Source: an uncultured Cyclobacteriaceae bacterium (GTDB taxonomy: Bacteria; Bacteroidota; Bacteroidia; Cytophagales; Cyclobacteriaceae). From it: a stretch of DNA of 64,000 nt. Where the stretch lies: NCBI GenBank assembly GCA_947492745.1, contig CANLOE010000003.1, positions 1 through 64,000 on the forward strand, read 5' to 3'. The translations under genes were made by a program, and so were the position numbers. Below, one piece after another: positions 32,501 through 44,188 of the stretch. Each line of letters opens with the position of its first letter. Within the stretch, counting starts at the first letter, position 1. The notes below the pieces were generated by a model. That model did not search any database and was not told the DNA's origin. It was given only the letters and a program-made list of their open reading frames with translations.

Positions 32501-35500
32501 ATTCAAGTGTTCAACGACTCCAGATCAGCATACCCCTATGGTCAAACGATTGTGGAGGCCTTCGAACAACAAGTGGCTCAAAGGCCCGAACAAATAGGCA
32601 TTATCTTTGGAAATCAACGGCTGACCTACAATTCTATCAATGAACGGGCCAATCAATTGGCACATCAATTGATCACAGACCAAAACGTCTGCCCACAAGA
32701 TTTTGTCGGTATAGTCATGGAGAAGTCTCCTATGCTGATCATCAGCTTGCTGGCAGTACTCAAAGCAGGAGCGGTATATGTCCCTATAGATCCATCACTT
32801 CCCGCTGAACGGATAGCTTATATACTCAAAGATACCCAGCTGAGTGTGCTACTGTATAAGGAGAATCATACAGCGGAGGGGGTACTGTCGGGCTGGAACG
32901 GTACCAAGGTAAAAGTTGTGGATAGTGTCGAAGATGCTCCGGCACGTATCAATAACCCTAAGGTGAGATCAAATGATGCCGACCCGGCCTATATCATCTA
33001 TACCTCTGGATCGACAGGACAGCCCAAAGGGGTTTTGGTTCCTCACAGAGGTGTGGTCAACCTTACAAATTGGCAGCAAAAAAACTTTACAATAGGTACT
33101 GAGAGCAGGGTATTACAGCACTTTTCCTACAGTTTTGACGGTGCCATTGGGGAAACGTTCATGGCCATGCTCAATGGGGCTACCCTGTGTATGTACTCGG
33201 AGTACTTGACACCGGAAGGTATGGTAGACTTTATCAATGAGCAACAGATATCGGTTGGGGTATTCGTTCCGTCACTGCTTCACCAGATGTCCCCTGAGGC
33301 CATAAAGCACATAGATAAGATGTCCGTAGTATCGGTAGGTGAAGTATGTCCACCGAGTCTGGCCCGAAAATGGTCGGCACAGTGTAGGTTCATGAATGCC
33401 TACGGACCCACAGAATATTCCGTCTATTCGCATTTGCACGAAGTAGATTACCAAATGCTATCGCTACAGGGCGATAGTCCTGTAGCGATAGGTAAACCTA
33501 TCTCCAATACGGACTCCTATATCTTGGACAATGATGGAAACCCCGTGAGCACTGGCGTTGAAGGAGATCTTTATCTCTCCGGTCTCGGCATGGCTGAAGG
33601 ATACCTTCACAATACCGTCGCTACATTGGAAAAGTTTCTGCCCAATCCATTCTTCCTATCCGATAAGTACGAAGACCGAGGTCGACTACAGGCCAAAGCC
33701 TGGAAGCAGCAGGTGCAGGATTTTAGAAAAAAGGCACAAAAACAGCCTCCGATAACCAATGAGGCCATTCAAGATATATCCAAACTGTATGACTTGACCC
33801 AAAACCTTGATGCTGACATAGCAGTCGGCACTAAAGCCTTCTTGGACAAACACCAAGGTAACCCTGTCAAATACGAGGGGTTCAGCAGGTACTTTTTAGA
33901 AGGCTATCACAATAGTTACGCTTCGGTGGGTATGGATGCTTCTGTGGTCAAGCAATTATTTGCATTGGATGATTTCACAGGAAAAAAAGGAGTGGAACTA
34001 GGTTTTGGCAATGCTGAAGTACTGAGTATACTCCAAGAACTGGGTGCTGAGGTAATAGGTTTCGAACTCAGTCCATTTTTCATCCAAAGAGCCAGAGATA
34101 TAGGATTGGAAGCATACTTGGCAGAAGTAGACTTGCCATTCGAAGAATTTTGTACCGCACATGACCTACTACCGGGCAGTAAGGACTTTTCTCTTTCCAC
34201 ATTGTTATTGGACAGGGTCGAATACCCTCAAAATCTAATCAAAAATCTTCTCGGGGTTCTTAAAGAAGACGGGCGGTTTGCCCTTCAGACACTGCTACCT
34301 ATTGTGCCGGAAGACGATGGAGGTGTAGAAGAGAAAATAGTCTATACCCAGAATCAAGACCGGATATGTCTTGGAAAGAATATGGAAGAAGACAAACTGA
34401 AGATGGTTCAGGTATTCTATGATCTTGGGGCAAGGGATATCGTCATCAGAAACTTCCAATTGATTGTATCCAGCCGCGACGGTATACAGGAGTATACGAT
34501 TTGGAGCTTTTCGGGTAGAAAGACCTTTGCAAAACAGGCACAGGACCACTATAGCAGGATGTACAGGACAGGAGATAGGGCCAAATACTTGCCTGATGGA
34601 AATGTTATGTTTCTTGGCCGACAGGATGACCAGATAAAACTGAGAGGATATAGGATTGAAATCGGAGAAATCGAACGGGCTTTGGAAAAATACCAAGAAG
34701 TCAACGAAGCGGTAGTACTGGTAAAAGAGGATACTTTTCGGGATAAGTCATTGGTCGCTTTTGTGGTAGGAAATGTACCAGTCGATGAAAGCGCACTGCG
34801 CGGATACCTAAGGCAAGTGCTCCCTGCTTATATGATACCCTCGACTATTGTTCAGCTAGACAGTTTCCCACTGAACAATAGTGGCAAGGTGGACAGAAAG
34901 AAGCTACCTATTCCTACCGGCCGGTCCACGGACCTAGATGCAGTGGAAACAGGGCCAATGTCAAAATTGGAGAAACAGATTGTAGGTATCTGGGAAGATA
35001 TTTTAGGGAAAAAGAACATTGGACCGAGCGATAACTTCTTTGAACTTGGGGGACACTCCCTGAAAGCTACGCGCTTAGTGACAAGATTATACAAGATATT
35101 GGGTATCCAGTTGGATTTGGTGGCCATATTCAAATTTCCTACACCAGAGCTGATGGCAACACATATCGAGTCTCAGCAACGGGACAATTACCTGCCTATA
35201 ATACCTATTGATGAAAAATCTTACTATGAAGTATCCAATGCCCAGAAACGGATGTGGTTTCTGAACCAGCTCGACCCTCTGGGCACGCAGTATAACATTT
35301 CGGGAGCTCATCACCTCTATGGAAAACTAAACGTCGAAGCTTTCCGCAAAGCGTTTGATGCCCTGTTCGTACGTCATGAGATACTCAGAAGTGTCATCGT
35401 CAATATAGAAGGCATGCCCAAACAACGGATATTGGATGTGGAAAAATCTGATTTTAAAATGGTCTATCTGGATTACCGAAACGAGGACACCAGTGCCGAG

Positions 35501-36598
35501 AAAGCGCAGGTCATTATCAGAGAGGAGTCCAATCATGTTTTTGATTTGGAAAAACCGCCATTGCTCAGAGGGATACTGGTACACGTCTCGGAGGAACATT
35601 TCATCTTTATCCTTACTCTCCATCATATTATCGCCGATGGCTGGTCCATGAAGGTACTGATAAAGGATCTGTTACAGCATTACAGCACATCCTTCGATAC
35701 TGAAGTCGAAAAAACAACTCCCTTGAAAATTCAATACAAAGATTATGTCGTCTGGTATGAGGAACTCCTACAGCAAAAGAAACTGCTTTCGCACAAGCAG
35801 TATTGGGAGTCGACGTTACAAGAACTGCCTCCACAATCTGAGTTTTATTCGGCCCTTACCGTGGGTGGCACTGAGGAAAAGGGTACTTATACACTGTCCA
35901 TACCCACTCAGGTGACCGACAACCTGAAAAAACTCAGTCTTGATTCCGGTAGCACTGTGTTCATCGTTTTACTGACAGCACTGAAAGTATTACTGTATAG
36001 GTACACGGGGGAAAATGATATCATCGTAGGTACTCCTGTATCCGGAAGGATACATCCCGATCTTGAAAACCAAATCGGGTTCTATGTGAACACACTCCCT
36101 ATACGAACCACTTTCAAAAACGATGACACCCTAAAAACGCTACTTCAGACGGTTAGGGACAGTGTGTTCAGTGCATGGAAGCATCAGGCATATCCTTATG
36201 ATGAAATCATAAGAGACCTACATCGGACGGGTCAGCTGATCGAAGGGAAACTGTTCAATGTCATGATATCTTATACCAAAGAGGACCAAAGTACAAGTGA
36301 AAATGACCTAGAGGGAATAAAAATCAAATCACAGTTCGAAGAACAGGATAAAGGTGACTTTGATTTGGATATCATGTTTATGGAACGTGCCGATGGAAGT
36401 GAGATTCTATGCTCCGTAAATTATAAAGTAGGAGTGTTCGACACAAATACCATGGTTGATTTTAAAGATCATCTTCTAAAGATAATTCATTATCAAACTC
36501 ATCAAATGGATACCGACCTCATAGATATAGAGATGGTCAGCGACCAACAGACAACTTCCGAAGGATTAAGTGAAGATGAACCATTATTTAACTTTTAA
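15638..36598 (+). CDS. Giant NRPS: FAAL-ACP, five C-A-PCP modules, terminal C (6,986 aa)
   Basis: This protein starts a lipopeptide assembly line. Domains with approximate residues: FAAL 1-575; ACP (Ser612); C (His797), A (1115-1605), PCP (Ser1657); C (His1845), A, PCP (Ser2713); C (His2899), A with inserted methyltransferase, PCP (Ser4064); C (His4252), A, PCP (Ser5125); C (His5311), A with inserted methyltransferase, PCP (Ser6474); final C (His6662). Pocket codes read against GrsA: DTESIGTVCK (Lys-like), DIMQLGMVWK (Gly-like), DGGVVVAVYK (unassigned), DIFDFGTIFK (proposed Hpg), DGGVVVAVYK. There are no epimerase or thioesterase domains. The protein ends with a full C domain and the tail DEPLFNF, so the chain must pass to an A-PCP unit on another protein (the one at 41567). 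It is the first gene of the co-directional cluster; the next gene follows after 30 bases. Confidence 0.95.
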   Translation: MLYNKVDLISFLEAAATGKNKGVTFISDSHTENFVSYKDLLYRAGSVWEKLRSKGAKAGDEMVLQVSDNESFVVLFWAGLLGKMIPVPLALGNQEDHLLKLVKVWSTLKNPIYVTETAQVRKVRGYADKNRLNRFGEQVNDNLILVEELLAIEEGWDFELTYEQEMPSSSDTAYIQFSSGSTGDPKGVELTHGNLVTNVMDICSRSEITKEDSMLSWMPLTHDMGLICFHLSGVFSGVNQFIMPTSLFIRRPILWMEKAAQHKISLLYSPNFGLKYFLSAIDGRDATDWDLSHLRLIYNGAEPISKTLCAQFEEKMQIYGLRENVVFPGYGLAEASVAVTLPDPGDPLTEHIVKRVDLTIGSSVVRAKALDKDSVSFVEVGRPIDHTQVRISDDQNRVMTDDTVGHIQIKGENVTKAYYQNPKATEKLFTEDGWLRTGDLGFTSKGRLIVTGRHKNVIIINGQNYYPQDIEQVIQDEVGIDLGKVVAIGDRSEDAAIEQLIILTLYKGMLEKFHFVRDSIKRAVLEKIGLTVDLVIPIRKVPKTTSGKVQHYKLLSDYRNGAFDEVLAQLSHHKSDYRSGETLQVVQQELKSLTALEDIDGDTALRDLGMNSLMAMQLIGRLNAALEVKLTIRDVFETPSVASLIKIIDERPKEKTETIRPLPSKTCYTLSPAQQRLWVMDGISDRKDAYNVALAYRMEGILDIHTFEKAFEQLVDKYEILRTIFVISEDIPHQKILSSEDIDFKVCFQDISRSPEKAQSIVNEYAGSTFDLGKGPLFRAVLLRLSDRIHLFSLTIHHIITDGYSISLLLSELAAFYRQQSIADSSEPTPLTVHYKDCMAWRSDTQSLDKVQESKEYWREELGGELPILDLYGKSNLFPHPTFNGNLLSFTFSEKETRTIREFSRYHGATDFMTLLAAVNALVYKYSSQEDVIIGTDIAGRDTKEMENQLGYFLKTLCIRTKFRSSDSFLQLLTHVKNKVLAGFEHQDYSYDSILEDLGLKSTINRSPLFDILVLFQNFDHSGWKNKMENLTIEDYSVQHHVSIVDLQFDFIPKKEQLQLDIRYNTDRFSAMQIEKLIRHLNYLIHQVMGRPEVRLSELDILLSEERRQLIAYSRSRSEDHISLEPVHVSFEKQAAQTPRHEAIVCGERRFTYQQINEKANQIARGIKERSAVSVGDRIGIMMGRSALLIPTIFAVLKTGATYVPIDPDFPEARVNYILHDSKVSLLLTDTASAEGLIEVQHEVIIVDSALFQSSIAELSPIDSNERVENTHLAYIIYTSATTGDPKGVMIPHSAMSDYVATFKAYFQIDEKDAIIQQSSIAFDTFVEEVFPVLSVGGKLVIAEEGGKNTDELLEVIQKHRATVLSTTPLVIKELNQHAESLSSLRAIISGGDKLLPSYISNLWGTWRLFNTYGPSETTVCVTFNEIEKPEDAEIIGTPIAHHQIYLLDENHRLKIEGGVGEIAIGGAGLASGYFNRPELTEEKFVDDPYRPDEKMYLTGDLGRWTTGGKIEFLGRKDFQVKIGGYRVELEEIEKVLMRHELISDVVAMTTESGQLHAYLVSSKSLTKKELRNYLSTYLPYYMIPSKFVGLSAFPLTTMGKVDRKGLLQTKADDDEQQYEEAPLSDLGVKILESWSKVLDINELRAEDDFFEYGGNSIKATQLIAVLSRDLKVKVSIKDIFLNPTVKDLVSAIELSKQEMYKEIPQQPEQEFYEVSNAQKRLWVLSHLGHGTLAYNEYESYELEGHLDMDSLKSAFTALLQRHQVLRTTFVSVDGEPRQKINALWEYGFEIGYTDIQNSEHIAQKLSEQVDTMLTTAFDLESGPLLKVDIKKVAANSHVLFIALHHIITDDWSGKILMQELLTLYSAALENKPSPLGELRLQYRDYALWNNNSLSSGLLENDKNYWLNRLSGELPVLNLPTDYKRPHKKLHEGAISHFLFDKELVNQVKTFSKSQQVSTFATLLTALNVLIYRYSHQSDLIIGTAVAGRNHPGLDEQLGMYINTLPLRSKLKGGESFKGLLQRIKHMVFEALEHQDYPFDLLVESLGLRRDLSRAPLFDVMVSYQSTEQNIDAYQLGNLTLQRRAKSKSASKYDLTFYFEESPRGMALRLEYDCSLFAESTALRMGGHLMEILRYALSNEGTAIAAIDYLPTVEKEQLLKTFNPKRQDYPKDKNVYHLFKEQVEKCPQDTSVVFREKAFTYADIDKKVDGLAAQMKADFAVLPNDTIGILLGRSEKVIVTILAIWKLGARYVPIDPQHPIERMNYILEDTGLELLVTVGKYLPLLEKVSPSVRVITTDSYSENTGMEEQSLKEMYPLKDSEGYMAYVLYTSGSTGKPKGVEVGHVGLTNFLLSMKSFPGFTKEDRLIAITTYVFDISIMEMFLPLICGGQVVVVASADTTNTESLQRIIEEEQVTMMQATPSMWSLLMESGWKGRKDLRVLTGGERLSDDLNERLSERAKEVWNMYGPTETTVWATCAEVSGLNHAPIGKPIHNTGAYVVDTLGQMVPIGVYGELYLDGDGLAQGYLNKPELTKERFKVLPLVGKRCYQTGDIVRWLPDGSLEYLSRVDDQVKVRGHRIEPGEIDSVLRGHEQIKEAATLAIPNERGEYELVSYYVADKDVMSTELRSYLSTVLPSYMVPTHMVNIDHHLPMTPSGKLDKKVLPLPVKNEKNGNSITTPQSKTEYRLCQVWTTVLAIDEVGTRQSFFEVGGHSLRAIRLISAIEREFGIKIVLEDVFVHSTIAEQARLIENKDHRTLQKIPTLPLQEHYEVTPSQKQFWMLDQMEEKLVYTMPAVHRLSGDLDERAFARAFDMLIQRHESFRTRFRTIDGEVRQVIENGNLGFKIEKIDLSKDNNPNRELAQRIEEESKCPFDLMNGPLVRAQLIRMHTSEYVFLFTMHHIIADGWSIEILIREVLSLYAADIDGRTHALPLLEVQHKEYAAWYNQVLREEEEENRSYWKATFADGVPLLNLPTESIRPARKTFYGDQKKFSIDKTLKNRLKEIAQQNEASLYMVLLATQAIVYHKYSAQTDMVIGTPIANRDRAELQEQIGYFICNVPLRLTFDATAPFDELLKSTKEVLLEADKHKNYPLEYLVEDLQLKRDFSRSLLYDVGFTWHGKRHDYFDSLDTQLTIEAMDAGYRFAQTDIWLFGIEKDEGIDFVVEYSTDLFDERWITTFIAHYENLLEEIVTKHQEPLTAIEYMQIEERDIILSDFNDTLQQNDYERTIVEVFEDHVAAHPEAVAIVFKEVSITYKELNERANRLAHYLRQEFEVERNTLVGIMLHRSEQVAVSILAIVKAGGAYVPIDPDLPKERINCILEDTGLHSLLTDSESMFSLEGWNGNLFALDIQMDLIDTSDVNPKRINTPDDLAYVIYTSGSTGRPKGVLIEHHGVINLTQWQKVNFRLSEESNIFQNFSYSFDGAVGETFMALLNGATLCMYSKELTAEQLIAFINRYQVDVGVFVPSMLRQLEPSQIEHIHRMSIVSVGEVCSQDLAKKWSAECRFMNAYGPTEYTVYSHLYEIEQSRYQAKGTVPVGEPIFNTHSYILDKFQKPVAYNIEGEMYLSGPGIARGYLNNNVATLSKFVPNPYFLSDKYELIHDVQFEGSKKEIEDFRSSGFPLAVPEKNQEAYEINDIEALSEKLSALDEDIRLSTIGYIENHRDNKVKYDCFCRYFFEGLYHSYASVGINEEVLNYLFPFEDGLSGKKGVELGFGNAEIMNVLRSMDADIHGLELSPYSVQYARQQGLSVQHGVVDVEFNAFRSAYGMEIGSKDFALSTLLLDRVEKPHNLIGNLLGVLKEGGRFALQTLLPVVPIDDGDVENKIVYSQEKHWVCMGQNEADDKLRLVQVLYHLGARDIRIVPIPYVVASRDGIQEYTLWSFSGTKTFVFDPQIHFSRMYKTGDMAKYLPDGNIDFIGRSDDQVKLRGYRIELGEIERTLEKHASIEEAVVMVKADNVGDKSLHAYLTTGSPISKDEVKAYLKTLLPYYMIPSTIALLESMPLNTSGKVDRSALLGYENDSFSETTYEAPETPHEKMVARLWMEILDRERVSKNDNFFELGGHSLKATRFISRLAQQFDVEVEIGAIFKCPTVREIARIIENTEKHRFESIEIIREQSHYELSHAQKRIWLLSELDDTGNAYNICGAHRIKGKLDIDALSRSFQLLVSRHEILRTNFYLQGDKLVQQVKDVDTYVFPMEHIDLCGHSHQEKVLSTYAEKTIRTVFDLKSDPLMKVTLLQVEVDSFVLLFAMHHIISDGWSTKVLVEEVVHAYETFSQGRVPRPKPLKVNYKDYANWHGKLLKGPAMEKHKEFWLQQFQEQPTPINLPSDYGRPPLKSFNGSKMEYTIPRALLVSLRKYARSNDVSSFMLLITVLKLMIYKYTDQNDITLGTPVLGRDHIDLEGQIGVYINTIALRTRFDKNITFHDLLQGVKKTTVEAYDHQSLPFDYLVEKLDLKRDLSRSPLFDIIVSHENEELHGDGLNTFGEVEISPFPLDVHISQFDLSFRFIESTETLSLEVEFNTDMFSERTISVMVGRYRQLLTNTLSEPNTKLTDIAWLETAEQHRLLLEFNATDKQYGHSRTVLEMFEEQVAQNPKAIALISGSEQVTYGMLEDKSVQIAATLYDAGVREGDVVGVLVEKSIALVAALFGLFKVKACYVPIDTTYPDDRIRFILSDCRAKTLLVDSDVQSAKRYGVNVIHIANAQTDNTSIALLEENFLDNDSLAYIIYTSGTTGRPKGVGVSHANLSHFLENVKENYGADHRLKMPFIASHAFDISLFQLLAPLTNGGQSIIIGKEALLEMPHFVALLKKASMLDTVPALYQRICDHIIENGLEEDFQGIERLFVGGDVIPDHLLTKLAQTFTNADIVVTYGPTEGTIFCTSIQYPKSNHGELRKGNILGRPLDNVKVHVLDTNNKLQPIGVVGELCIAGAGVATGYFEQPQLTNSSFIDNPYGSGKLYRTGDLARWNNDGKLEFMGRADHQVKVRGYRIELGEIERMLSTSFLVKETVATVFESNTNEKLICVFFIAEEPVEKGLLRSYLRNKLPEYMIPADFVQLEAFPLNSNGKIDKKELLSDYSFQGASSETYEAPKGYLQESLITIWEEVLEISPIGVNSNFFELGGHSLKATKVVSKILKSIGIDTNITSLFRYPTVKELAIQLKKQGGLVYEPISPIDQAAYYEVSLGQKRLWILHQMEGQKASYNIPGAYRIDRQLDSVALCSGFNSLIDRHEILRTTFLQVDGELRQKVHEKMEFELEGIDLKDSENPMEEAYQWMFKEAEEPFDLEQGPLLRAKLLELAEQQYVLLFTIHHIISDAWSMNVLITEVMEAYNCYQEEKTYFKTPLAIHYKDYAAWQRKTIQEPVYTAHKDFWEKLYDSDIPMLDLPLDRQRPLLQSFAGDAVSITLERELSQAIISLSTTAESSLFMFLIASVNVLLYKYSGQGDIVIGTPVAGREHPDLEEQIGFYVNTLPLRNQLSADDRFSEVLENVKSNTLKAYEHQSYPFDLLVESLDLRRDLSRSPLFDVMVALHASDHELVDNEYIRPLEVKSVSSKFDITFNFHLTKNGTIRLEITYSTALFNKDRMERALEHYRNIAKAVSGEFDAKIKDIDYLSHQEYTEIIQVFNDSRSAYPYGQTIVEAFEQQVAQRPEQIGIIFGNQRLTYNSINERANQLAHQLITDQNVCPQDFVGIVMEKSPMLIISLLAVLKAGAVYVPIDPSLPAERIAYILKDTQLSVLLYKENHTAEGVLSGWNGTKVKVVDSVEDAPARINNPKVRSNDADPAYIIYTSGSTGQPKGVLVPHRGVVNLTNWQQKNFTIGTESRVLQHFSYSFDGAIGETFMAMLNGATLCMYSEYLTPEGMVDFINEQQISVGVFVPSLLHQMSPEAIKHIDKMSVVSVGEVCPPSLARKWSAQCRFMNAYGPTEYSVYSHLHEVDYQMLSLQGDSPVAIGKPISNTDSYILDNDGNPVSTGVEGDLYLSGLGMAEGYLHNTVATLEKFLPNPFFLSDKYEDRGRLQAKAWKQQVQDFRKKAQKQPPITNEAIQDISKLYDLTQNLDADIAVGTKAFLDKHQGNPVKYEGFSRYFLEGYHNSYASVGMDASVVKQLFALDDFTGKKGVELGFGNAEVLSILQELGAEVIGFELSPFFIQRARDIGLEAYLAEVDLPFEEFCTAHDLLPGSKDFSLSTLLLDRVEYPQNLIKNLLGVLKEDGRFALQTLLPIVPEDDGGVEEKIVYTQNQDRICLGKNMEEDKLKMVQVFYDLGARDIVIRNFQLIVSSRDGIQEYTIWSFSGRKTFAKQAQDHYSRMYRTGDRAKYLPDGNVMFLGRQDDQIKLRGYRIEIGEIERALEKYQEVNEAVVLVKEDTFRDKSLVAFVVGNVPVDESALRGYLRQVLPAYMIPSTIVQLDSFPLNNSGKVDRKKLPIPTGRSTDLDAVETGPMSKLEKQIVGIWEDILGKKNIGPSDNFFELGGHSLKATRLVTRLYKILGIQLDLVAIFKFPTPELMATHIESQQRDNYLPIIPIDEKSYYEVSNAQKRMWFLNQLDPLGTQYNISGAHHLYGKLNVEAFRKAFDALFVRHEILRSVIVNIEGMPKQRILDVEKSDFKMVYLDYRNEDTSAEKAQVIIREESNHVFDLEKPPLLRGILVHVSEEHFIFILTLHHIIADGWSMKVLIKDLLQHYSTSFDTEVEKTTPLKIQYKDYVVWYEELLQQKKLLSHKQYWESTLQELPPQSEFYSALTVGGTEEKGTYTLSIPTQVTDNLKKLSLDSGSTVFIVLLTALKVLLYRYTGENDIIVGTPVSGRIHPDLENQIGFYVNTLPIRTTFKNDDTLKTLLQTVRDSVFSAWKHQAYPYDEIIRDLHRTGQLIEGKLFNVMISYTKEDQSTSENDLEGIKIKSQFEEQDKGDFDLDIMFMERADGSEILCSVNYKVGVFDTNTMVDFKDHLLKIIHYQTHQMDTDLIDIEMVSDQQTTSEGLSEDEPLFNF
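17630..20713 (+). other. NRPS module 1 (C-A-PCP), Lys-like code
   Basis: The C motif is HHIITDG. The A-domain pocket reads DTESIGTVCK, close to the known bacitracin Lys code DAESIGSVCK. The A3 core motif reads TSATTGDPKG, with Ala replacing the usual Gly. The PCP serine is in GGNSI (Ser1657). Confidence 0.75.
20771..23893 (+). other. NRPS module 2 (C-A-PCP), Gly-like code
   Basis: The C motif is HHIITDD (the usual Gly after Asp is Asp). The A-domain code DIMQLGMVWK resembles the Gly code DILQLGLIWK. The PCP serine is Ser2713 in GGHSL. Confidence 0.7.
23939..27949 (+). other. NRPS module 3 (C-A[MT]-PCP), unassigned code
   Basis: The C motif is HHIIADG. The A-domain code DGGVVVAVYK keeps Asp235, so an alpha-amino acid is expected, but I do not recognise the code. 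The A domain is interrupted by a methyltransferase (26417-27325). The PCP serine is Ser4064. Confidence 0.8.
26417..27325 (+). other. SAM methyltransferase inserted between A6 and A7 of module 3
   Basis: About 300 residues separate the A6 core (SGPGIARGYL, residues 3567-3576) from A7 (YKTGD, Tyr3900); in a normal A domain this distance is about 20 residues. The insert contains a class I SAM-binding glycine motif VELGFGNAE (3710-3718), an acidic post-I position in GLELSP and a motif III-like LKEGGRFAL. It should methylate the residue loaded by this module. Whether it methylates N, O or C is unknown. Confidence 0.85.
27992..31132 (+). other. NRPS module 4 (C-A-PCP), proposed Hpg
   Basis: The C motif is HHIISDG. 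The pocket code DIFDFGTIFK is shared, but for one Ile/Val change, with the A domains at 41567 and 53138. The PCP serine is Ser5125. The Hpg assignment is an inference from the code and the neighbouring Hpg-type genes. Confidence 0.6.
31175..35185 (+). other. NRPS module 5 (C-A[MT]-PCP), duplicate of module 3
   Basis: The C motif is HHIISDA (Gly replaced by Ala). The code DGGVVVAVYK is identical to that of module 3, and the A domain carries the same methyltransferase insert (33659-34552). The PCP serine is Ser6474. Modules 3 and 5 probably arose by duplication. Confidence 0.8.
33659..34552 (+). other. SAM methyltransferase inserted between A6 and A7 of module 5
   Basis: The insert lies between GMAEGYL (Tyr5989) and YRTGD (Tyr6309). 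It has the same VELGFGNAE motif (6119-6127), GFELSP and LKEDGRFAL, in the same position and nearly the same length as the insert of module 3. Confidence 0.85.
35222..36598 (+). other. Terminal C domain with FNF tail
   Basis: A complete condensation domain (HHIIADG at His6662, YEVSNAQKRMW start) ends the protein with an acidic linker and DEPLFNF. The partner A domain lies on another polypeptide. The NRPS at 47207 ends similarly with DEGEVFNF. Confidence 0.85.
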
Positions 36599-36628: not shown

Positions 36629-38716
36629 ATGATTATTTCTCAAGACTATGATGCCTATACAGCAGAAGACCATCTGACATGGTCTAAGCTAAACGACCGC
36701 CAAATGAGCCTAAACTATAAAAAAGCCTCTATTGAGTACCAGAAGGGCTTTGACATACTGTCCTTGGACTCGTCTAAGGTAATTAAGATAGAGGAGCTGA
36801 GTGACCGCCTGAAAAAGGTTTCGGGTTGGTCTTTGATTCCTGTTTCGGGACTCATCCCTACCAGAGATTTTTTCTTCATGCTGATCAATAAAAAGTATCC
36901 CATAACTGTTCCCGTACGAAAGCTGCATGAACTCGACTTTAGTGAAGACCCTGATATTTTTCATGATATCTATGGGCATATACCACTTTTGACCAATGAG
37001 CGGTTCTATCGCTTTCTGACCGAGTTCAGCATTATTGCACTAAAGTATGTGGAGAATGAAAAAGCAGTTGAATTTTTAGGACGTTTGTATTGGTTCACAT
37101 TTGAGATGGGGGTGATTTGGGAGAGTGGAGAAATGAAGCCCTATGGTGGTGCCATCATTACTTCCGATAGTGAAATAACCAACGTTAAGAACCCCGATAT
37201 TCCCAAGCATGCTTTTGACATTAGCAAGATCCTTAATACGCCCTATGATAACTATAAGTTGCAAAAAGAATATTTTGTCATTGATTCTTTTGATGATCTG
37301 TTCGATTGTCTGAAAGACCTGGAAGACTACCTTATCGCCAACTTACAACAGGCAGCTGAAGATGAAGTAGACCTAGAGCCTGCTAAACTATCGGTGAACT
37401 CCACGCTAACGAACGGCTTTAACAATGTGATTGGCTTCTTGAACGATATTCAATTCAGGTTCCCTAACAGTATTTCATTCGCAGCAGGGCAACCGGACCA
37501 GCGCTTTTTCAATATCGAAAGCCATATGGATAAATTCCATACCTATATCGACTACTTGGAGAAAAAAGACAGTCATAAGAGCCGACGGGAACTGATCGAT
37601 GGCTTGGGGCAGTATAACAAAACCAAGGGCATCATCAATGAGGTCATCGCCGAGTACCTGAAAAAAGACGAAGGTATCAAGGTCAAGCCCGAAGACATAT
37701 TGGTGACTTTGGGTGCGCAGGAAGCTTTTGCGGTAATCGTTTCTACCCTATGCAATAGAGGACAGGATGTCGTACTGTTGGAAAACCCCAGTTATATAGG
37801 TGTTAGCAGCTTTGCGAAAGTTTTTGGATACGACACCCGAGCGGTAAGTACGGACCAGAACGGCATCGACTTGGATGAATTGAAGGACAAAGTCATTTCG
37901 GTCAATCATAGTGGGGCCAATGTCAAACTGGTCTATGTGATTCCTGACTACCAGAACCCCTCCGGTTGCTGTATGCCCGTAGAAAACAGATTGAAATTGC
38001 TACAGATGGCGAACGATCATAACTTCTATATTATAGAGGATGGTGTATACAATAGTTTTACCTATGAAGAAAAGAGAAACCCAACACTAAAATCCTTGGA
38101 TAGAGGCAAACGGGTTATTTATGTTGGTTCATTTTCCAAATCATTGTTTCCCGGGATAAGAGCGGGCATCATCGCAGCGGGGCAAGAGGTGGAGTACACA
38201 CCGGGAAAAGTCAGTGCCCTGAGTGATGAGATGGCCAAGGTCAAGGCCTTGTTTTCAAACAACACCCCTTCCATAACACAGGCCATTCTTGCCGGTATAC
38301 TGATCGATCAGGATTATTCGCTGAGTAAGCTCAATCAGGAAAAATACGAAACCTATAAAATCAAAAGAGACAAAATCATTTCCGCCCTGGATACCTACGT
38401 AGGAGCCTTCAAAGACGAATGGGCAGCGGACATTATCTGGAACGAGCCCAAAGGCGGTTTTTTCCTAAAGATGACAGTACCGTTCGAGGTGACCGAAGAG
38501 GAGGTCGCTTTGTGTGCGGATAAATATGGAGTAATCTACTTCCCGATGACCTATTTCTATCTGGGTGAAGGGGGGCAGCACGAGATAAGGCTGACCTTTT
38601 CCAACCTCTCTCTGGAGCAAATAGAAATAGGAATAAGAAGTTTCGCAGAATACCTGAAGGATAAAGTATCGATCAACGATAAAAAATATGCAAACCTAAA
38701 AGCAGAAATGGTATGA
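36629..38716 (+). CDS. Fused aromatic amino acid hydroxylase and PLP aminotransferase
   Basis: A 695-residue bifunctional enzyme. Residues of about 1-245 match pterin-dependent aromatic amino acid hydroxylases: SGLIPTRDFF, the iron-ligand motif HDIYGHIPLL (His112, His117) and the third ligand Glu159 in YWFTFEMGV. Residues of about 265-690 are a fold type I aminotransferase of the 2-aminoadipate/MocR-like branch, with SFAAGQPD, the VIPDYQNPSG block and the PLP lysine Lys504 in SFSKSLFPGIRAG. The N-terminal half would convert Phe to Tyr. The C-terminal half could both deaminate Tyr and aminate 4-hydroxyphenylglyoxylate to 4-hydroxyphenylglycine, as HpgT does. The next gene overlaps by 4 bases, indicating coupled translation in the same pathway. 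I know of no characterised protein with this fusion, and no database was searched. Confidence 0.85.
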   Translation: MIISQDYDAYTAEDHLTWSKLNDRQMSLNYKKASIEYQKGFDILSLDSSKVIKIEELSDRLKKVSGWSLIPVSGLIPTRDFFFMLINKKYPITVPVRKLHELDFSEDPDIFHDIYGHIPLLTNERFYRFLTEFSIIALKYVENEKAVEFLGRLYWFTFEMGVIWESGEMKPYGGAIITSDSEITNVKNPDIPKHAFDISKILNTPYDNYKLQKEYFVIDSFDDLFDCLKDLEDYLIANLQQAAEDEVDLEPAKLSVNSTLTNGFNNVIGFLNDIQFRFPNSISFAAGQPDQRFFNIESHMDKFHTYIDYLEKKDSHKSRRELIDGLGQYNKTKGIINEVIAEYLKKDEGIKVKPEDILVTLGAQEAFAVIVSTLCNRGQDVVLLENPSYIGVSSFAKVFGYDTRAVSTDQNGIDLDELKDKVISVNHSGANVKLVYVIPDYQNPSGCCMPVENRLKLLQMANDHNFYIIEDGVYNSFTYEEKRNPTLKSLDRGKRVIYVGSFSKSLFPGIRAGIIAAGQEVEYTPGKVSALSDEMAKVKALFSNNTPSITQAILAGILIDQDYSLSKLNQEKYETYKIKRDKIISALDTYVGAFKDEWAADIIWNEPKGGFFLKMTVPFEVTEEEVALCADKYGVIYFPMTYFYLGEGGQHEIRLTFSNLSLEQIEIGIRSFAEYLKDKVSINDKKYANLKAEMV

Positions 38717-39813
38717 AGACCAACCATCATATAGATTATATAGAACTATTCGTATCCATGGCCAAACCCTTGGTATACTGGCATAGTAATGCTCTGGGCT
38801 TTGATATAATAGGCTATAAAAGTCCTGAAAATGGGACGAAAGGAGTGGTCTCTTATCTACTGGAAAAAGGAGAGATAAAACTGGTTATAACTGCGGCACT
38901 GACCTCCGCTAACTCTACGGATGCCGCCGAGGTACTTTCATTTGTCAATACCAATTCCCTGGGGATGAAAAGAGTGGTCATAGCTACTGATGATGTAAGT
39001 AGTGCCTTCGATCATGCTGTAGCAGCAGGAGGTATCCCCATTAGATTCCCCGTCACTACCGAGGATGAAAAAGGATATATAGAAGAAGCCTCCATCAGGC
39101 TCTATGACCAGAATGAAATCGTATTTTCCAATAGAGATAACTATGAGGGCATTTTCCGACCTGGTTATGAGAAGGTAGTAGAGAGTAAGGCGACGTTTGA
39201 CAACGGCTTCACCTCAGTAGACCACATCGCCAGTGAACTCAGAATAAACCAAATCGATTTTTGGACATCCTATCTGAAAGATACCTTGGGTACCCAGATG
39301 ATACAGGGTATCAGTAAGAGCGAGGACAATAAGACGGGTCTGGTGCTGAACATCAATCAATCACCGGACAAGCGTATGACCTTTGTAATGGCAGAACCCA
39401 ACAGTCATGCTCCTAACTCAAAAGTCCAGCAGAATATCGACAACTTTGGTCCTGGTATACATCATGTAGCCTTTGCCACCGATGATTTGGTAGAAACAGT
39501 AAAAAAGCTGAGAAAGAACAGTATAGACTTTGTTCAATTTCCACCTACTTACTATGACCTGCTAAGAGAAAATGAAGATCTGAAAGGTTTCGATATCGAT
39601 GAACTCGAAGAACAGGGCATCTTGATCGACAAAGAAGGTGACGGCTACCTATTGCAGAAATTCATCAAACCCTTTGGTGATAGGCCCTTCTTCTTCTACG
39701 AGCTGGTACAGCGGGTCAATGGCTACACCGGTTTCGCACTCAAGAATATCAATGTTCTTAAAAAAGCAGAAGAACGACAGATCATGAAATATAACGCCAT
39801 GGCCGAAACTTGA
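38713..39813 (+). CDS. HPPD/hydroxymandelate synthase-family dioxygenase (HmaS-like)
   Basis: A 366-residue non-heme iron dioxygenase of the 4-hydroxyphenylpyruvate dioxygenase family. The iron ligands are visible: His171 (VDHIAS), His251 (GIHHVAFAT) and Glu330 (FFYELVQR). HPPD makes homogentisate, while its relative hydroxymandelate synthase makes 4-hydroxymandelate for Hpg. In the substrate-pocket segment, HPPDs keep Pro and Asn (FPINEP); here the segment reads FVMAEP (Val225, Ala227), closer to the HmaS pattern, which also lacks both. The location between NRPS genes, coupled to an aminotransferase and followed by a 2-hydroxyacid oxidase, also favours HmaS. The protein overlaps the preceding gene by 4 bases. 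The HPPD alternative is not excluded by sequence alone. Confidence 0.75.
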   Translation: MKTNHHIDYIELFVSMAKPLVYWHSNALGFDIIGYKSPENGTKGVVSYLLEKGEIKLVITAALTSANSTDAAEVLSFVNTNSLGMKRVVIATDDVSSAFDHAVAAGGIPIRFPVTTEDEKGYIEEASIRLYDQNEIVFSNRDNYEGIFRPGYEKVVESKATFDNGFTSVDHIASELRINQIDFWTSYLKDTLGTQMIQGISKSEDNKTGLVLNINQSPDKRMTFVMAEPNSHAPNSKVQQNIDNFGPGIHHVAFATDDLVETVKKLRKNSIDFVQFPPTYYDLLRENEDLKGFDIDELEEQGILIDKEGDGYLLQKFIKPFGDRPFFFYELVQRVNGYTGFALKNINVLKKAEERQIMKYNAMAET

Positions 39814-40127
39814 TATTCGGAGCCCATGGCATTTATGGAACCCATTTTCTTGGCCTTGAAGTAATTTATAAAGTTATAAACCGCTGGTCAAATGCGCTGT
39901 ACCCGAAGATGAAGTAATGGTCCGGCATTCGATATTTGGTGGTTTTATTTTACCATGGAATGAAAATCCCAGGATGAGTACCCATGTTCGGGGCATTGTA
40001 ACAGGCTACTCCTTCCCGATTATGAGAAGCCTATTTCTTGGGAAGTGATATGATGCGCGTGGCGCTACACCAGTATCCGAAACCAAAACGTGTATTACGT
40101 ATCCTTTGTACTAAACAAAAAGAAGTG
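39814..40127. other. Intergenic gap inside the operon
   Basis: This 314-base stretch is the longest gap inside the cluster. I see no gene or clear terminator. An in-frame ATG at 40038 lies within it but gives an atypical N-terminal extension to the following oxidase. Confidence 0.5.
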
Positions 40128-41561
40128 ATGGAAATGGATTTGCGACCTACAATAACAGCGGATAATTATGGTCTTGCAAGGCAGTATATTACCGACTTTA
40201 CGACTATAGTGGGAGACCGGTATGTCATTACCGCTTCGGATGTCGATGAATGTGATGGGACAGATAGGGAAAGCATACTAGGTGATGCCGACGTACTGGT
40301 AAAACCGGGAAATACGGCGGAAGTTGCCTCCCTACTGCGCTTATGTCATCAGCACAAAATACCCTTAAGTCCAAGTTCCGGAGCAACAGGTGTGGTCAGG
40401 GGGAGTATACCTGTAGAAAATGGCTTGGTCCTCTCATTGGAAAGGCTGAATAGGATACATCAGGTAGATAGCATCAACAAATGGGTCTGGGTAGAAGCGG
40501 GTGTTATCACGGAGACACTTTTTACTACAGTGAAAAGTCATGGCCTGTACTATCCTGTCCTTCCGGGGAGTGGTGGTAGTAGTATGATAGGTGGTAATAT
40601 TGCTACTTCGGCAGGTAGTCCCAAGTCCGCAAAATATGGGACCATCAAACAGTATGTATTGAATATGGAGGTAGTATTGCCCACAGGAGAAATCATGTTT
40701 ACCGGGGCCAATGTCTATAAAAATGCCACAGGATTCAATCTCAATGAACTTTTGGTAGGTAGTGAGGGAACACTCGGTATTATTACTAAAGTACTGCTAA
40801 AGCTATTGCCCCTACCGACTCATGAGCTAACGGTATTAGCGGCTTTTGCATCGGATAAAAAGGCCTGTGAAGCCGTTACTGCGATATCGGGAACCTCTCT
40901 TGACCCAGCTTGTGTGGAACTGATTTCCGAAAATGCCATAAGGCTGACCCGACCCTTTGTATCGAAGAATGCTCCATTTATCGGTAATGAATCCGTCAAG
41001 GCACAGGTAATCATAGAATTGGATGCGCATAGCGAAGAGGTACTCTGTAGGGATCTCGAAAGGGTATACGCCACCATAAGCCCTTTCACATTTCAGGAAC
41101 CTCTGGTAGCGACCAATGTCAGGGAGAAAGAAAGGTTATGGGAGCTGAGGACCAGTATCGGAGAGGCGATGACATCCAATGGTCTGACCTATAGGGATGT
41201 GGATGCCTCTGTTCCCGTGACGCACCTTTTCCAATTTATGGTAGCGGTCAATACCATTATGGAAAAACATGCGCTGGAGGTATGCAGTTTCGGACATGCA
41301 AAGGATGGTAATCTACATACGATGCTGGTCTATAAGCAGGAGCGCAGACCTGAAGAGGTAATCGATAAAGCCCTTCAAGAAATCTATCGGTCAGCGGTTG
41401 CTTTTGGCGGTACTATTTCGGGCGAACACGGTATAGGAGAACTTCAAAAAGACTACCTGCCGCTCGCACTTTCCGAAACACAGATACGGGTCATGGAAGG
41501 CATCAAAAAAGTGTTTGACCCGAACCACATACTCAATCCCGGAAAAATCTTTAACAAATAA
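40128..41561 (+). CDS. FAD-linked 2-hydroxyacid oxidase/dehydrogenase (GlcD-like)
   Basis: A flavoprotein of the vanillyl-alcohol oxidase/GlcD (D-lactate dehydrogenase, glycolate oxidase) family. It shows the FAD-binding loop SPSSGATGVVRG, the second FAD segment GSGGSSMIGGNIATSAG, and the C-terminal metal-site signatures GHAKDGNLH and GEHGIGELQ. In this neighbourhood it should oxidise 4-hydroxymandelate to 4-hydroxyphenylglyoxylate. That step is done in actinomycete Hpg pathways by an FMN enzyme of a different fold (Hmo), so this would be a non-homologous replacement. I prefer the ATG at 40128, preceded by AAAAAGAAG, because the upstream ATG at 40038 adds 30 residues unlike the family. The stop is 5 bases before the next ATG. 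Confidence 0.85.
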   Translation: MEMDLRPTITADNYGLARQYITDFTTIVGDRYVITASDVDECDGTDRESILGDADVLVKPGNTAEVASLLRLCHQHKIPLSPSSGATGVVRGSIPVENGLVLSLERLNRIHQVDSINKWVWVEAGVITETLFTTVKSHGLYYPVLPGSGGSSMIGGNIATSAGSPKSAKYGTIKQYVLNMEVVLPTGEIMFTGANVYKNATGFNLNELLVGSEGTLGIITKVLLKLLPLPTHELTVLAAFASDKKACEAVTAISGTSLDPACVELISENAIRLTRPFVSKNAPFIGNESVKAQVIIELDAHSEEVLCRDLERVYATISPFTFQEPLVATNVREKERLWELRTSIGEAMTSNGLTYRDVDASVPVTHLFQFMVAVNTIMEKHALEVCSFGHAKDGNLHTMLVYKQERRPEEVIDKALQEIYRSAVAFGGTISGEHGIGELQKDYLPLALSETQIRVMEGIKKVFDPNHILNPGKIFNK

Positions 41562-41566
41562 CCCTT

Positions 41567-42280
41567 ATGCCGGAGGAAAATAAAATGGATGATCAGTACC
41601 TGTTGAGGCAGCCGAGCTATAAAGAGGCGGATCGATTTTGGACTATAGTGCTGGCCGAAGGTAACCATGAAGAACGTCTTGGTTTGCGCAACGTGGGCAA
41701 CATGGAGAATATAACGGTGGACTTGCCTTTGGAAACATCCAAAAAGATGTTCTCGGTATGTAAAAAGAGTGATTTTGCCCTATTTATACTATTTCAGACG
41801 ATACTGAAAATTACCTTTTCAGAGTGTTTGGGTATCGCTGATATAACCTTATACTGTCCTCCTTTTTGTGAAAAAGAGAAGACGGTACCCGGAAATGCAC
41901 TGCTCCCCTTAACAGGTAAAATGAAGTCGGGGCAAACGTTCAGGACAGTACTTGCCGCCACTCAAAAACAGACCGAAAAATGTAGGAAGTACCAAGACCA
42001 CTTATTGGAAACGGTTTATCAGTCGTTGGGTAGACAGCCTGTCCGTAATCCTGAAATTATCCTCTACTCCGAAGCGCTGCATAAGTTTGACACTGAAATC
42101 ATCGATTCCTATAGCATTTGTTGTAGCTACCATATTCACAGATCAAAGCTATCGCTACAGTTGAAGGGGAAGGGAGATAGGGATTTTCTAATGGACCTTG
42201 TTGATAATTTTAACGCTATTGCAAGGCTATGTCTGCACTGGCCTCATGTTAGAATAGAGGATATCGGTCTATACTTGTCC
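41567..42280 (+). other. N-terminal half condensation domain
   Basis: About 235 residues beginning near DRFWTIVLAEG (the FW...L start of the C-lobe) and continuing through FALFILFQTILKITFSE resemble the C-lobe of a condensation domain without the catalytic N-lobe. The same arrangement begins the NRPS at 53138. Confidence 0.75.
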
Positions 42281-44188
42281 GATATGACCAAAAAAATAAA
42301 CCTGCCCGATAGGGAATGTGGCAACCGGCATTTTCTGGAAATCATAAGTGCAACGGCAAAGGAGTCTCCATCCAAGATAGCACTGAAAACGTCGGGCAGC
42401 TCATTTACATATGATGATCTGGAAACCGTCTCCAATAAATTGGCCAATTATTTTCGAGCCGATTTGCAGCTTTTGGCAGGCGATCGGGTGATACTCTGTA
42501 TGGAAAGAACGGAACGTATGATTTTTTGCCTACTGGCTTTGATGAAAGCCAATGTGGTATACCTGCCCGTCGATATCCTTCATGCAGATTCGAGACTTCC
42601 CTTTATAGAGAAAGATGCTCGGCCCTTGTATATACTCAAGGAAGGTCATACCATTTTTCGGCCCAAGACCTCAAAATGTATCAATATCGACGAAGTCTGG
42701 AAGACCATCATCACGATGGGCAATCCAAGATTCGAATACCGTTCTATTCCGCAGAATATCGCCTATATCATCTACACCTCAGGTTCAACCGGAAAACCAA
42801 AAGGTGTCCAGGTCAGTGAGGCAAACCTCAGCTCATTTGTAGATAGTCTGCACACCGCATTTCCTTGGGTACGGACACCCATAATGCCGCTGATAGCTTC
42901 CAATGCTTTTGATATCTTTATGTTTCAGTTATTACTGCCCCTTACGACCAAGGGTACTGTCGATTTGTTTTCCAGTACCGATATCATGGATATAGGGAAC
43001 CTAGTGAACCAACTGAAACAGGTCAACATCATGGATGCTGTACCTTCACTCTACAGGCAGGTTGTCGATGAGATCATAAACCATGGCAGCGAGAAAGATT
43101 ACAAACATATACAATCACTTTTTATAGGAGGAGATACTATATCGGATAAACTACTTCGCTCTATGGCCATTGCGTTTCCTAAGGCCACTATTACGGTCAC
43201 CTACGGACCTACCGAAGCTACTGTGTTCTGTACTGCTATCACCTATCAAAGTAGGGATTTAGGGCAATGTCCGGCAAAAGGTAATATCGTCGGTCGTCCT
43301 ATGCCCAATACCTCTATTTTTATCATGGATAAAGCACTCAAACCCGTGGAAGAAGGGAGTGTAGGAGAAATCTACATTTCAGGAGGTGGTGTTAGCCAAG
43401 GCTATCTGAACCGACCGGGACTGACATCGAAACAATTCATCGATAACCCCTTATCGGAAAACGACCGATTGTACAGAACGGGAGATACCGCTAGGCTGAC
43501 CGAAAAAGGAATGCTGGAGTTTCTGGGCCGTCGAGATAGACAAGTGAAGGTCAGAGGCTACCGAATAGAACTGGGAGAAATAGAAAATACTATGCTCCTA
43601 CTTCCTGAAATCGATGAAGCAATTGCCACCTTAACAGTAAACAAGGAACAGGAAAAGGCTATAGCCGCATTTTTTGTCAGTAAGGAAACTCTGGAAACCG
43701 AGTATGTTCATAGTCACCTGATGGAGTGCCTGCCAACCTATATGATACCCGTATTTATCGAGCAGCGACAGCGAATGCCCTTAAACCAAAACGGTAAAAT
43801 AGACGAAAAAGCCTTATCCGTTCAAAAAAGACCACAAGCCAAAGGTGTGTACAAGGGTACCCCGTCCACAAAACAGATGGAACAAAGGCTGCTCAAGATT
43901 TGGCAGCAGATACTGGTTACCGAGCAAGTAGGTGTAAAAGATAGCTTTTTCAGTTCTGGGGGAAACTCTATCAGAATAGCTATCCTGATCAACCGGATAA
44001 ACGAAGAGCTGGGACTGAAACTGCCCATTCTGTCGGCATTCAAGTACTCCAATGTTTCTGCACTATCGGATTATATTCTGAAAATAACAAAGAAAAACCT
44101 TCAAGAATCAACAGGGGATATCGAGGCTTCGACGGCCCTGATGAAAAATACCATTAAACTGATCAACGAAAATAGCCATGAAAACTGA
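41567..44188 (+). CDS. NRPS: half-C, A, PCP (873 aa)
   Basis: A short elongation protein. Residues of about 1-235 resemble only the C-terminal lobe of a condensation domain; the N-lobe and the HHxxxDG motif are absent. The A domain (about 255-760) has YTSGSTGKPKG, TYGPTE, YRTGD and GYRIELGEIE, with pocket code DIFDFGTVFK (proposed Hpg). The PCP serine is Ser801 in GGNSI, where the usual FFELGG reads FFSSGG. The protein can only work if a C domain is supplied in trans, presumably the terminal C of the 6,986-residue NRPS. The start could instead be the ATG at 41585, which has GGAGG 8 bases upstream. The 3' end overlaps the PKS gene by 11 bases. Confidence 0.9.
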   Translation: MPEENKMDDQYLLRQPSYKEADRFWTIVLAEGNHEERLGLRNVGNMENITVDLPLETSKKMFSVCKKSDFALFILFQTILKITFSECLGIADITLYCPPFCEKEKTVPGNALLPLTGKMKSGQTFRTVLAATQKQTEKCRKYQDHLLETVYQSLGRQPVRNPEIILYSEALHKFDTEIIDSYSICCSYHIHRSKLSLQLKGKGDRDFLMDLVDNFNAIARLCLHWPHVRIEDIGLYLSDMTKKINLPDRECGNRHFLEIISATAKESPSKIALKTSGSSFTYDDLETVSNKLANYFRADLQLLAGDRVILCMERTERMIFCLLALMKANVVYLPVDILHADSRLPFIEKDARPLYILKEGHTIFRPKTSKCINIDEVWKTIITMGNPRFEYRSIPQNIAYIIYTSGSTGKPKGVQVSEANLSSFVDSLHTAFPWVRTPIMPLIASNAFDIFMFQLLLPLTTKGTVDLFSSTDIMDIGNLVNQLKQVNIMDAVPSLYRQVVDEIINHGSEKDYKHIQSLFIGGDTISDKLLRSMAIAFPKATITVTYGPTEATVFCTAITYQSRDLGQCPAKGNIVGRPMPNTSIFIMDKALKPVEEGSVGEIYISGGGVSQGYLNRPGLTSKQFIDNPLSENDRLYRTGDTARLTEKGMLEFLGRRDRQVKVRGYRIELGEIENTMLLLPEIDEAIATLTVNKEQEKAIAAFFVSKETLETEYVHSHLMECLPTYMIPVFIEQRQRMPLNQNGKIDEKALSVQKRPQAKGVYKGTPSTKQMEQRLLKIWQQILVTEQVGVKDSFFSSGGNSIRIAILINRINEELGLKLPILSAFKYSNVSALSDYILKITKKNLQESTGDIEASTALMKNTIKLINENSHEN

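Follow-up and report, generated by a model that had tools for sequence, protein, structure and literature searches.

The first 64 kb (positions 1 to 64,000; hereafter the window) of a 148-kb contig, CANLOE010000003.1 (C3), from the 7.1-Mb genome of an uncultured Cyclobacteriaceae bacterium (assembly GCA_947492745.1) carry three consecutive genes embedded among genes for nonribosomal peptide synthetases (NRPSs). We consider it very probable that these genes form a cassette that supplies 4-hydroxyphenylglycine (Hpg) to the NRPSs through an independently evolved pathway, whose substrates and products we infer. The basis of this reading is the protein families involved, conserved catalytic residues, recurrence of the gene set, phylogeny, and co-occurrence. 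The Bacteroidota gene set would probably make Hpg with enzymes that mostly arose independently of the known actinomycete ones. The three genes are as follows.

36629..38716, + strand: PheH-AT fusion, 695 amino acids (aa), with a phenylalanine hydroxylase (PheH) domain at aa ~3-235 and an HpgT-like pyridoxal phosphate aminotransferase (AT) domain at aa ~256-680 (Pfam PF00351 and PF00155).
38713..39813, + strand: HmaS-like dioxygenase, 366 aa, proposed 4-hydroxymandelate synthase (metal ligands, active-site changes, trees, and AlphaFold2 [AF2] model).
40128..41561, + strand: GlcD/LDHD-type flavin adenine dinucleotide (FAD) oxidase, proposed D-(R)-4-hydroxymandelate dehydrogenase (PF01565 and PF02913, active-site motif).

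An earlier, sequence-only reading of this stretch had described three consecutive genes between NRPS genes, and the positions of the open reading frames (ORFs) bear this out (36629-38716, 38713-39813, and 40038-41561, all on the + strand). The genes for the fusion and the dioxygenase overlap by 4 bases. As listed, the third ORF starts at TTG 40038 and encodes 507 aa; because four relatives are 465 to 473 aa long, with listed starts falling about there, the true start is probably an ATG near 40128-40134. The 314-base gap between the second gene and this probable start (39814-40127) has no relative in the same genome or in the cassette loci, and it may hold remnants of a lost gene.

In the pathway we propose, the PheH domain would convert Phe to Tyr (using pterin, Fe, and O2), and the aminotransferase domain would convert Tyr and 4-hydroxyphenylglyoxylate to Hpg and 4-hydroxyphenylpyruvate. 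The HmaS-like enzyme would turn 4-hydroxyphenylpyruvate and O2 into 4-hydroxymandelate (probably the R enantiomer) and CO2, and the FAD/metal enzyme would oxidize (R)-4-hydroxymandelate to 4-hydroxyphenylglyoxylate, closing the cycle. Adenylation (A) domains of a DIFD/DIFH clade, three of them in the window cluster, would load the Hpg. A Tyr-making domain fused to a Tyr-consuming one fits such a cycle.

The assignment of hydroxylase and aminotransferase to one protein, also made in the sequence-only reading, agrees with Pfam, which places Biopterin_H at 10-231 and Aminotran_1_2 at 337-671 of the 695-aa ORF. The PheH iron ligands, aligned to H138, H143, and E184 of the C. violaceum enzyme, are kept in all five fused proteins known to us from the searches below. 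Compared with the HpgT-type aminotransferases from two Streptomyces loci, the window aminotransferase domain shows 34-36% identity (246-284 bits), and all five fused domains span 33-37%. Identity of the window domain to the unfused aminotransferases of two Bacteroidota genomes, G942 and G684, is 44-46%. Within the source genome, the best match after the two fusions scores 73 bits, and the best PDB aminotransferase scores 155 bits with a different program. Among the proteins compared (no full aminotransferase tree), the aminotransferase looks like the one part related to its actinomycete counterpart.

The gene set recurs. A genome search for the same three genes beside NRPS genes, as the sequence-only reading had proposed, yielded intact triads at 5 loci in 4 genomes: the window, contig C121 of the same genome, Pedobacter steynii DSM 19110 (one triad), G261, and G013. 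All five adjoin NRPS genes. Because the triad is intact at these loci despite rearranged gene order, its co-occurrence is more than chance. The copy on C121 is 52% (dioxygenase), 55% (fusion), and 39% (oxidase) identical to that of the window and has another gene order and other neighbors. In an all-against-all BLAST of ORFs of at least 150 aa from the five stretches, which are bounded by contig ends, each triad gene was present in 5/5 and otherwise only NRPS genes were common to all; an exporter occurred in three stretches, a CmlA-type gene in two, and each remaining non-NRPS gene in one.

A dioxygenase scan of 390 genomes of the family at E 1e-75 matched six, with intact triads in the source genome, G261, and G013 and ordinary 4-hydroxyphenylpyruvate dioxygenases (HPPDs) in the other three. 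The latter three (G060, G065, and G102; 281-296 bits) were dropped from the cassette count because they have HPPD residues and adjoin HgmA-like genes, whose products pass the Pfam cut-off and not the NCBIfam one. The P. steynii locus was the one locus found by a contig scan with two N-terminal patterns, which is no measure of rarity. Scans of the order and of the phylum at E 1e-100 matched 3/390 and 3/395 genomes (the source genome included, in samples that share genomes); they scored at most five candidates per genome, and their thresholds, like that of the family scan, may miss unfused forms. These two scans gave four weaker dioxygenase relatives, of which G533, G684, and G942 have like active-site changes. 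The fourth, G933 (345 bits), has HPPD residues and was dropped as a cassette member.

In G942, aminotransferase, dioxygenase, and FAD oxidase are three separate genes in an NRPS/polyketide synthase (PKS) cluster, with no PheH match within 19 kb. G684 has aminotransferase and dioxygenase genes between NRPS genes on a 14.7-kb contig on which there is no oxidase match. Because of these unfused cassettes, and of the missing PheH match in the 19 kb of G942, the PheH fusion is probably a later addition. An HpgT-like aminotransferase gene adjoins that of the dioxygenase in 7/8 loci (the five triads, G942, and G684). A remnant in G261 (G261:C68, L022 9433-10581), in which the tail of an A domain is in frame with a dioxygenase keeping the fused-type active-site residues, is left out of this figure and of the intact count, since 16 kb there gave no PheH-AT or oxidase match. 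The eighth locus, in G533 (L076, G533:C162), pairs a dioxygenase with an FAD oxidase on an 11.8-kb contig with neither an aminotransferase match nor an NRPS. It has an HpaB-type hydroxylase nearby and is perhaps an aryl-acid pathway via 4-hydroxymandelate.

The dioxygenase, as a member of the Glyoxalase family in Pfam, scores 213 bits against the NCBIfam 4HPPD model (TIGR01263), under the cut-off of 277. It keeps the metal ligands H171, H251, and E330, and L212, V225, A227, and I346 replace the Ser, Pro, Asn, and Phe of HPPD. From here on, positions 230, 243, 245, 364, and 368 are numbered by the chain of S. avermitilis HPPD (1t47). In two site tables (10 rows each, nine shared), every HPPD row has S230, P243, N245, F364, and F368. 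Actinomycete HmaS, represented by ten rows, carries T243 and Y368, with Ile, Leu, or Val at 245 and, at 364, Ile in nine rows and Val in one. L230, V243, and I364 are found throughout the eight Bacteroidota dioxygenases, in which 245 is Ala in five and Val in three. K255, H269, and K368 are further features of the five fused-type enzymes; 2/10 actinomycete rows likewise show a His at 255 or 269. In work by Gunsior and colleagues, position 364 is the residue called F364 in the human enzyme and F337 in Sav HPPD. According to PMC3739788, which cites that work, the F337I variant of Sav HPPD lost ~98% of its activity and formed hydroxymandelate besides homogentisate. The HmaS-like label given in the sequence-only reading thus stands, with active-site changes of the hydroxymandelate synthase type and a separate HPPD with HPPD residues kept in the same genome (contig C110); P. 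steynii likewise has one. An AF2 model of the window dioxygenase (predicted local distance difference test [pLDDT] 85; Foldseek query TM-score [TMq] 0.88 to 1t47 and 0.82 to 2r5v) has the predicted fold of HPPD/HmaS, which does not tell the two functions apart.

In maximum-likelihood (ML) trees, the Bacteroidota dioxygenases form one clade (100/100), grouped with Bacteroidota HPPDs that adjoin HgmA-like genes, and actinomycete HmaS forms the other clade. A joint clade of both HmaS groups was rejected by the approximately unbiased (AU) test with p 0.0136 (20 rows), 0.0048 (23 rows), and 0.0020 (28 rows). An Azospirillum HPPD, kept in the earlier tree, was left out of the later ones because of its long branch. 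The Bacteroidota dioxygenase seems to have arisen from a Bacteroidota HPPD, apart from actinomycete HmaS. Given these trees and the rejection of the joint clade, hydroxymandelate synthesis seems to have evolved twice from HPPD, by the same Phe-to-Ile step.

One A-domain clade tracks the cassette. By motif, the first nine residues of the specificity code are DIFD[FY]GT[VI]F in six A domains of three family genomes: two in G013, one in G261, and the following three in the window cluster.

29861..30640, + strand: DIF-clade A-domain core in the 6986-aa NRPS, code DIFDFGTIF.
42812-43591, + strand: DIF-clade A-domain core of the 41567..44188 protein, code DIFDFGTVF (proposed Hpg).
54392..55171, + strand: DIF-clade A-domain core in the NRPS starting at 53138, code DIFDFGTVF.

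With a profile built from these six (A7), a scan of the 390 family genomes gave matches of at least 332 bits only in the cassette genomes (the source genome, G013, and G261), including domains outside its training set on source-genome contig C50 (two) and on G261:C18 (one). The best match in the other 387 genomes was 232 bits, and any match at E 1e-60 occurred in 9/390. We join contigs C50/C121, and likewise C20/C31, into one cluster by inference only. P. steynii, absent from the model, has two A domains at 346 and 341 bits (next 197), and G684 has one at 311 bits (next 202). G942 has two at 274 and 262 bits on the cassette's own contig, ~14 and 8 kb away (next 207), and G533 has no match at E 1e-50. 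A DIF-clade A domain is present in all six NRPS-bearing cassette genomes. In a tree, the 14 A domains, out of 55, that were selected for the motif FDIxxF[EQ] form one clade (100/99), with the codes DIFD[FY]GT[VI]F (11 domains), DIFDFGMVF (G684), and DIFHFGLIF (both of G942). We compared them with a region of Nonomuraea gerenzanensis around HmaS and vanY-N, which we take to be the A40926 glycopeptide cluster, for a product with three Hpg. Its five A domains found by motif have the codes DAFHLGLLC, DIFHLGLLC, DALHLGLLC, DASTVAAVC, and DPYHGGTLC, and HLGLLC-type codes presumably mean Hpg. The G942 code agrees with DIFHLGLLC at 6/9 positions. Joining the Bacteroidota clade to the N. gerenzanensis domains was rejected (AU p 0.0098). 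Because the clade is not joined to these glycopeptide-cluster domains, an Hpg pocket would be convergent.

The 2-hydroxyacid oxidase named in the sequence-only reading is of the GlcD type and, by Pfam and its active site, belongs to the D-2-hydroxyacid family. It contains FAD_binding_4 and FAD-oxidase_C and scores 347 bits against the GlcD model, short of the cut-off of 568. The same two domains (PF01565 and PF02913) occur in all five triad oxidases and in the G942 and G533 oxidases; PF01070 (FMN_dh) is the family of the two actinomycete Hmo proteins that we scanned. Canonical Hmo is dependent on flavin mononucleotide (FMN) and (S)-specific, leaving (R)-mandelate unchanged, as stated in PMC6677016. 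Mouse LDHD is described in PMC10589216 as a general, highly D-selective D-2-hydroxyacid dehydrogenase that accepts D-phenyllactate, with Arg347, His398, His405, Glu442, and His443 in its active site. This Arg, His, His, Glu, His set, matched by motif and not by alignment to LDHD, is kept in 5/5 triad oxidases. Active PF01565/PF02913 proteins are reported as D-lactate or D-2-hydroxyglutarate dehydrogenases in PMC8491902. The family assignment thus predicts a stereospecificity opposite to that of the FMN family, which is (S)-specific. Should the oxidase follow its family, its substrate would be (R)-4-hydroxymandelate, and the dioxygenase would need to be (R)-selective. The proposed pathway probably runs through (R)-4-hydroxymandelate, the mirror image of the (S) intermediate of the actinomycete route.

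Residue 230 of the dioxygenase follows the oxidase type. PDB entry 3zgj is, by its title, an S221M V223F Y359A mutant of S. coelicolor HmaS, in which S221 is position 230, and we take this triple mutant to invert the enantioselectivity of HmaS. We examined the nine best (H1-H9) of 424 matching plasmid-collection records for actinomycete loci, searching 13-25 kb around each; none of the nine matched both oxidase types. The six with an FMN oxidase (L019, L020, L058, L083, L084, and L085) have Ser at 230, and the three with an FAD-type oxidase have Ile, Ile, and Thr (NBC_00887, NBC_00726, and S. finlayi). In Bacteroidota, an oxidase is present at seven loci, always of the FAD type and paired with Leu at 230. 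Residue and oxidase type thus agree in 16/16 loci, Ser with FMN in 6/6 and Leu/Ile/Thr with FAD in 10/10; G684, whose contig gave no oxidase match, and 2r5v, whose locus lay outside the survey, are not counted. The covariation is suggestive, and it is the most specific evidence for a mirror-image route. On balance we favor such a route, in which an (R)-selective dioxygenase and a D-2-hydroxyacid FAD dehydrogenase replacing the FMN oxidase would have arisen at least twice, from HPPD in Bacteroidota and from HmaS in Streptomyces, each time with a non-Ser residue at 230, and in Bacteroidota also with an independent Hpg A domain and the PheH-AT fusion.

What weighs against the mirror-image route is that the covariation rests on two independent changes of oxidase type, in the same direction, for which a sign test gives p 0.5 and significance is unreachable. 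It is possible, if rather unlikely, that the same Hpg pathway runs through the usual (S)-4-hydroxymandelate and that the FAD oxidase has changed or relaxed stereospecificity. D-2-hydroxyglutarate dehydrogenases are said, at the start of an abstract, to diverge in substrate scope. Moreover, only the triple mutant speaks to the role of residue 230, and its V223F and Y359A are unmatched: at these sites (232 and 368), the Bacteroidota enzymes have Ile and Lys when fused and Val and Phe when unfused. Speaking for the (R) enantiomer instead are the 5/5 match to the active-site set of the highly D-selective mouse LDHD, the D-lactate or D-2-hydroxyglutarate dehydrogenase activities reported for PF01565/PF02913 proteins (both from the sources cited above), and the split at 230, non-Ser in 10/10 FAD-type loci and Ser in 6/6 FMN-type ones.

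The wider Hpg reading, put forward in the sequence-only reading, gains support from the active-site changes, the triads beside NRPS genes, the A-domain clade, and the Hpg-like code of G942. Several points count against it. The Hpg chemistry is read from sequence. The PheH domain passes the Pfam cut-off and falls under both NCBIfam PheH cut-offs (NF008877, 241.3 against 247; TIGR01267, 210.3 against 264.75). The Bacteroidota changes at 243 and 245 lead to residues other than those of actinomycete HmaS, and the first AU test of the dioxygenases was named after the tree had been seen, the later two repeating it with changed rows. Among the A domains, the fused-type code agrees with DIFHLGLLC at only 4/9 positions, the A7 model was built from the three family cassette genomes and its scan scored at most six candidates per genome, the clade member of G684 lies on a contig other than its cassette's, and the bootstrap of the tree had not settled. 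Finally, the five fused-type enzymes have Lys and His in place of the Gln pair that contacts the substrate phenol in HPPD (according to PMC3739788) and would therefore bind their substrate differently.

This replacement, with a pocket that is otherwise more hydrophobic, is what one might expect if the product were phenylglycine, the dioxygenase taking phenylpyruvate and the PheH domain only making Tyr as an amino donor. We consider this improbable: a pathway protein that includes a hydroxylase would be unexpected if the product were not hydroxylated, both Gln are kept in the three unfused-type enzymes, and the G942 A domains have a His where three HLGLLC-type N. gerenzanensis domains have it. 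Another alternative, in which the product of the three genes is not an amino acid monomer but an aryl keto or aryl hydroxy acid, such as a starter unit, draws on the G533 pair, with its dioxygenase and FAD oxidase alone; it is very improbable in view of the adjacent HpgT-like aminotransferase in 7/8 loci and an A-domain clade that tracks the cassette. A reading of the dioxygenase as an HPPD, with homogentisate or a pigment as the product of the genes, is extremely improbable, even with HPPDs as the best PDB sequence and Foldseek matches. Four HPPD-conserved residues are changed in 8/8 enzymes, the source genome and P. steynii each have a separate HPPD, and no homogentisate gene was found among ORFs of at least 150 aa at 15.6-75.6 kb of the contig; by contrast, the HPPDs of G060, G065, G102, and G933 each adjoin an HgmA-like gene. 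We rejected a plain HPPD identity on these residues, the separate HPPD, and the gene context.

Compared with the actinomycete HmaS/Hmo/HpgT route, the Hpg pathway proposed here would use the same reaction types in the same order, both gene sets lie beside NRPS genes, and the aminotransferase is homologous to HpgT (33-37%). In contrast, the Bacteroidota dioxygenase groups next to Bacteroidota HPPD in a clade of its own (AU p 0.002-0.014), the oxidase is FAD_binding_4/FAD-oxidase_C where actinomycete Hmo is FMN_dh, the hydroxylase is fused to the aminotransferase in the triads, and the A domains branch apart from those of a glycopeptide cluster. A Phe hydroxylase also stands where at least one actinomycete locus (L084) has a prephenate dehydrogenase. 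The claim of the sequence-only reading that two components differ in architecture or family was right but understated, in that both the dioxygenase and the A domains seem to have arisen independently of their actinomycete counterparts. The Streptomyces loci with an FAD-type oxidase (NBC_00887, NBC_00726, and S. finlayi plasmids) resemble the window in having HmaS, an HpgT-type aminotransferase, and a GlcD-type oxidase (34% identical to the window's) beside NRPS genes and, as in Bacteroidota, a residue other than Ser at 230. They differ in that their HmaS is in the actinomycete clade and that 25 kb searched gave no PheH match. In two of the three, an Asp/Glu-racemase-family gene lies beside the aminotransferase gene (L080 9906-10580 and L082 7645-8322); the third (L081) has a same-sized hypothetical gene at this position. 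With HPPD, the probable ancestor, the Bacteroidota dioxygenases share fold and metal ligands and differ by the replacement of S230, P243, N245, and F364, the window protein also scoring under the 4HPPD cut-off. The oxidase shares two Pfam domains and five active-site residues with LDHD, D-2-hydroxyglutarate dehydrogenase, and GlcD, with an aryl substrate proposed for the Bacteroidota enzyme.

Glycopeptide-type antibiotics have Hpg as a hallmark monomer, whose biosynthesis is described from actinomycetes in the papers we found. In the open-licence PubMed Central (PMC) literature, among the matches listed, we found no description of Hpg biosynthesis in Bacteroidota; Hpg with Chitinophaga or Pedobacter gave nothing, and Hpg with Bacteroidota and nonribosomal gave only the genome of a vancomycin producer. 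No natural (R)-hydroxymandelate synthase was found there by title among the matches listed. Nocardicin-type formadicins come from a Flexibacter. A 2025 survey (PMC12181424) reports uncharacterized NRPS clusters in P. steynii DSM 19110, and its main text does not contain "Hpg" or "phenylglycine". Family models would label the genes studied here HPPD and glycolate oxidase. If our reading is true, a PheH-AT fusion, an HmaS-like gene, a GlcD-type oxidase, and a DIF-clade A domain would form a genome-mining signature for Hpg peptides, and there would be a natural (R)-hydroxymandelate synthase and a repeated stereochemistry switch of an enzyme pair.

The surrounding NRPS/PKS cluster spans 15638 to ~75.6 kb of contig C3, beyond the end of the window. 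Its remaining parts within the window are as follows.

15638..36598, + strand: fatty-acyl-AMP-ligase-like loading unit and NRPS modules, 6986 aa, two A domains interrupted by a methyltransferase (MT).
41567..44188, + strand: NRPS protein, A domain and peptidyl carrier protein (PCP) after ~250 aa without a Pfam match (Pfam).
44178..47210, + strand: PKS module of ketosynthase, acyltransferase, and acyl carrier protein (KS-AT-ACP; Pfam).
47207..53050, + strand: NRPS with TubC docking domain, two condensation (C) domains, luciferase-like monooxygenase, A domain (code DVMQLGVLW, which we take to be Gly-like), and PCP.
53138..64000, + strand: NRPS, 6360 aa, running on to 72220 of contig C3.

The sequence-only reading had placed the cassette in a lipopeptide line, which is compatible with the first NRPS. 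Because its first 700 aa score best against the fatty acyl-AMP ligase subfamily (332 bits, short of the cut-off of 600) and contain an AMP-binding and a carrier domain, an acyl start of the line is likely. The 6360-aa NRPS is followed on contig C3 by an ATP-binding cassette (ABC) exporter and a CmlA-type hydroxylase. The latter, a diiron beta-hydroxylase of PF18456 at 74007-75626, has copies elsewhere, at L010 12410-13999 (by BLAST) and L022 10644-12254 (by the look of its start only), and because of these genes the product likely contains beta-hydroxylated residues.

A scan for promoters and terminators gave a result at chance level. In the first NRPS, the methyltransferase domain splits the two A domains (near 26164 and 33400; code DGGVVVAVY) ahead of the Y(K/R)TGD motif, and G013 has two DGGVVVAVY A domains at matching places, known from code and place only. 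The luciferase-like monooxygenase of the 47207-53050 protein sits between the C and A domains of an NRPS module, and a similar TubC-C-Lux-A-PCP protein adjoins the unfused cassette of G942 (L078 2867-7384). Farther along contig C3, at 83-132 kb, there is an apparent second large PKS cluster with crotonase-like genes, named by eye from the starts of their sequences.

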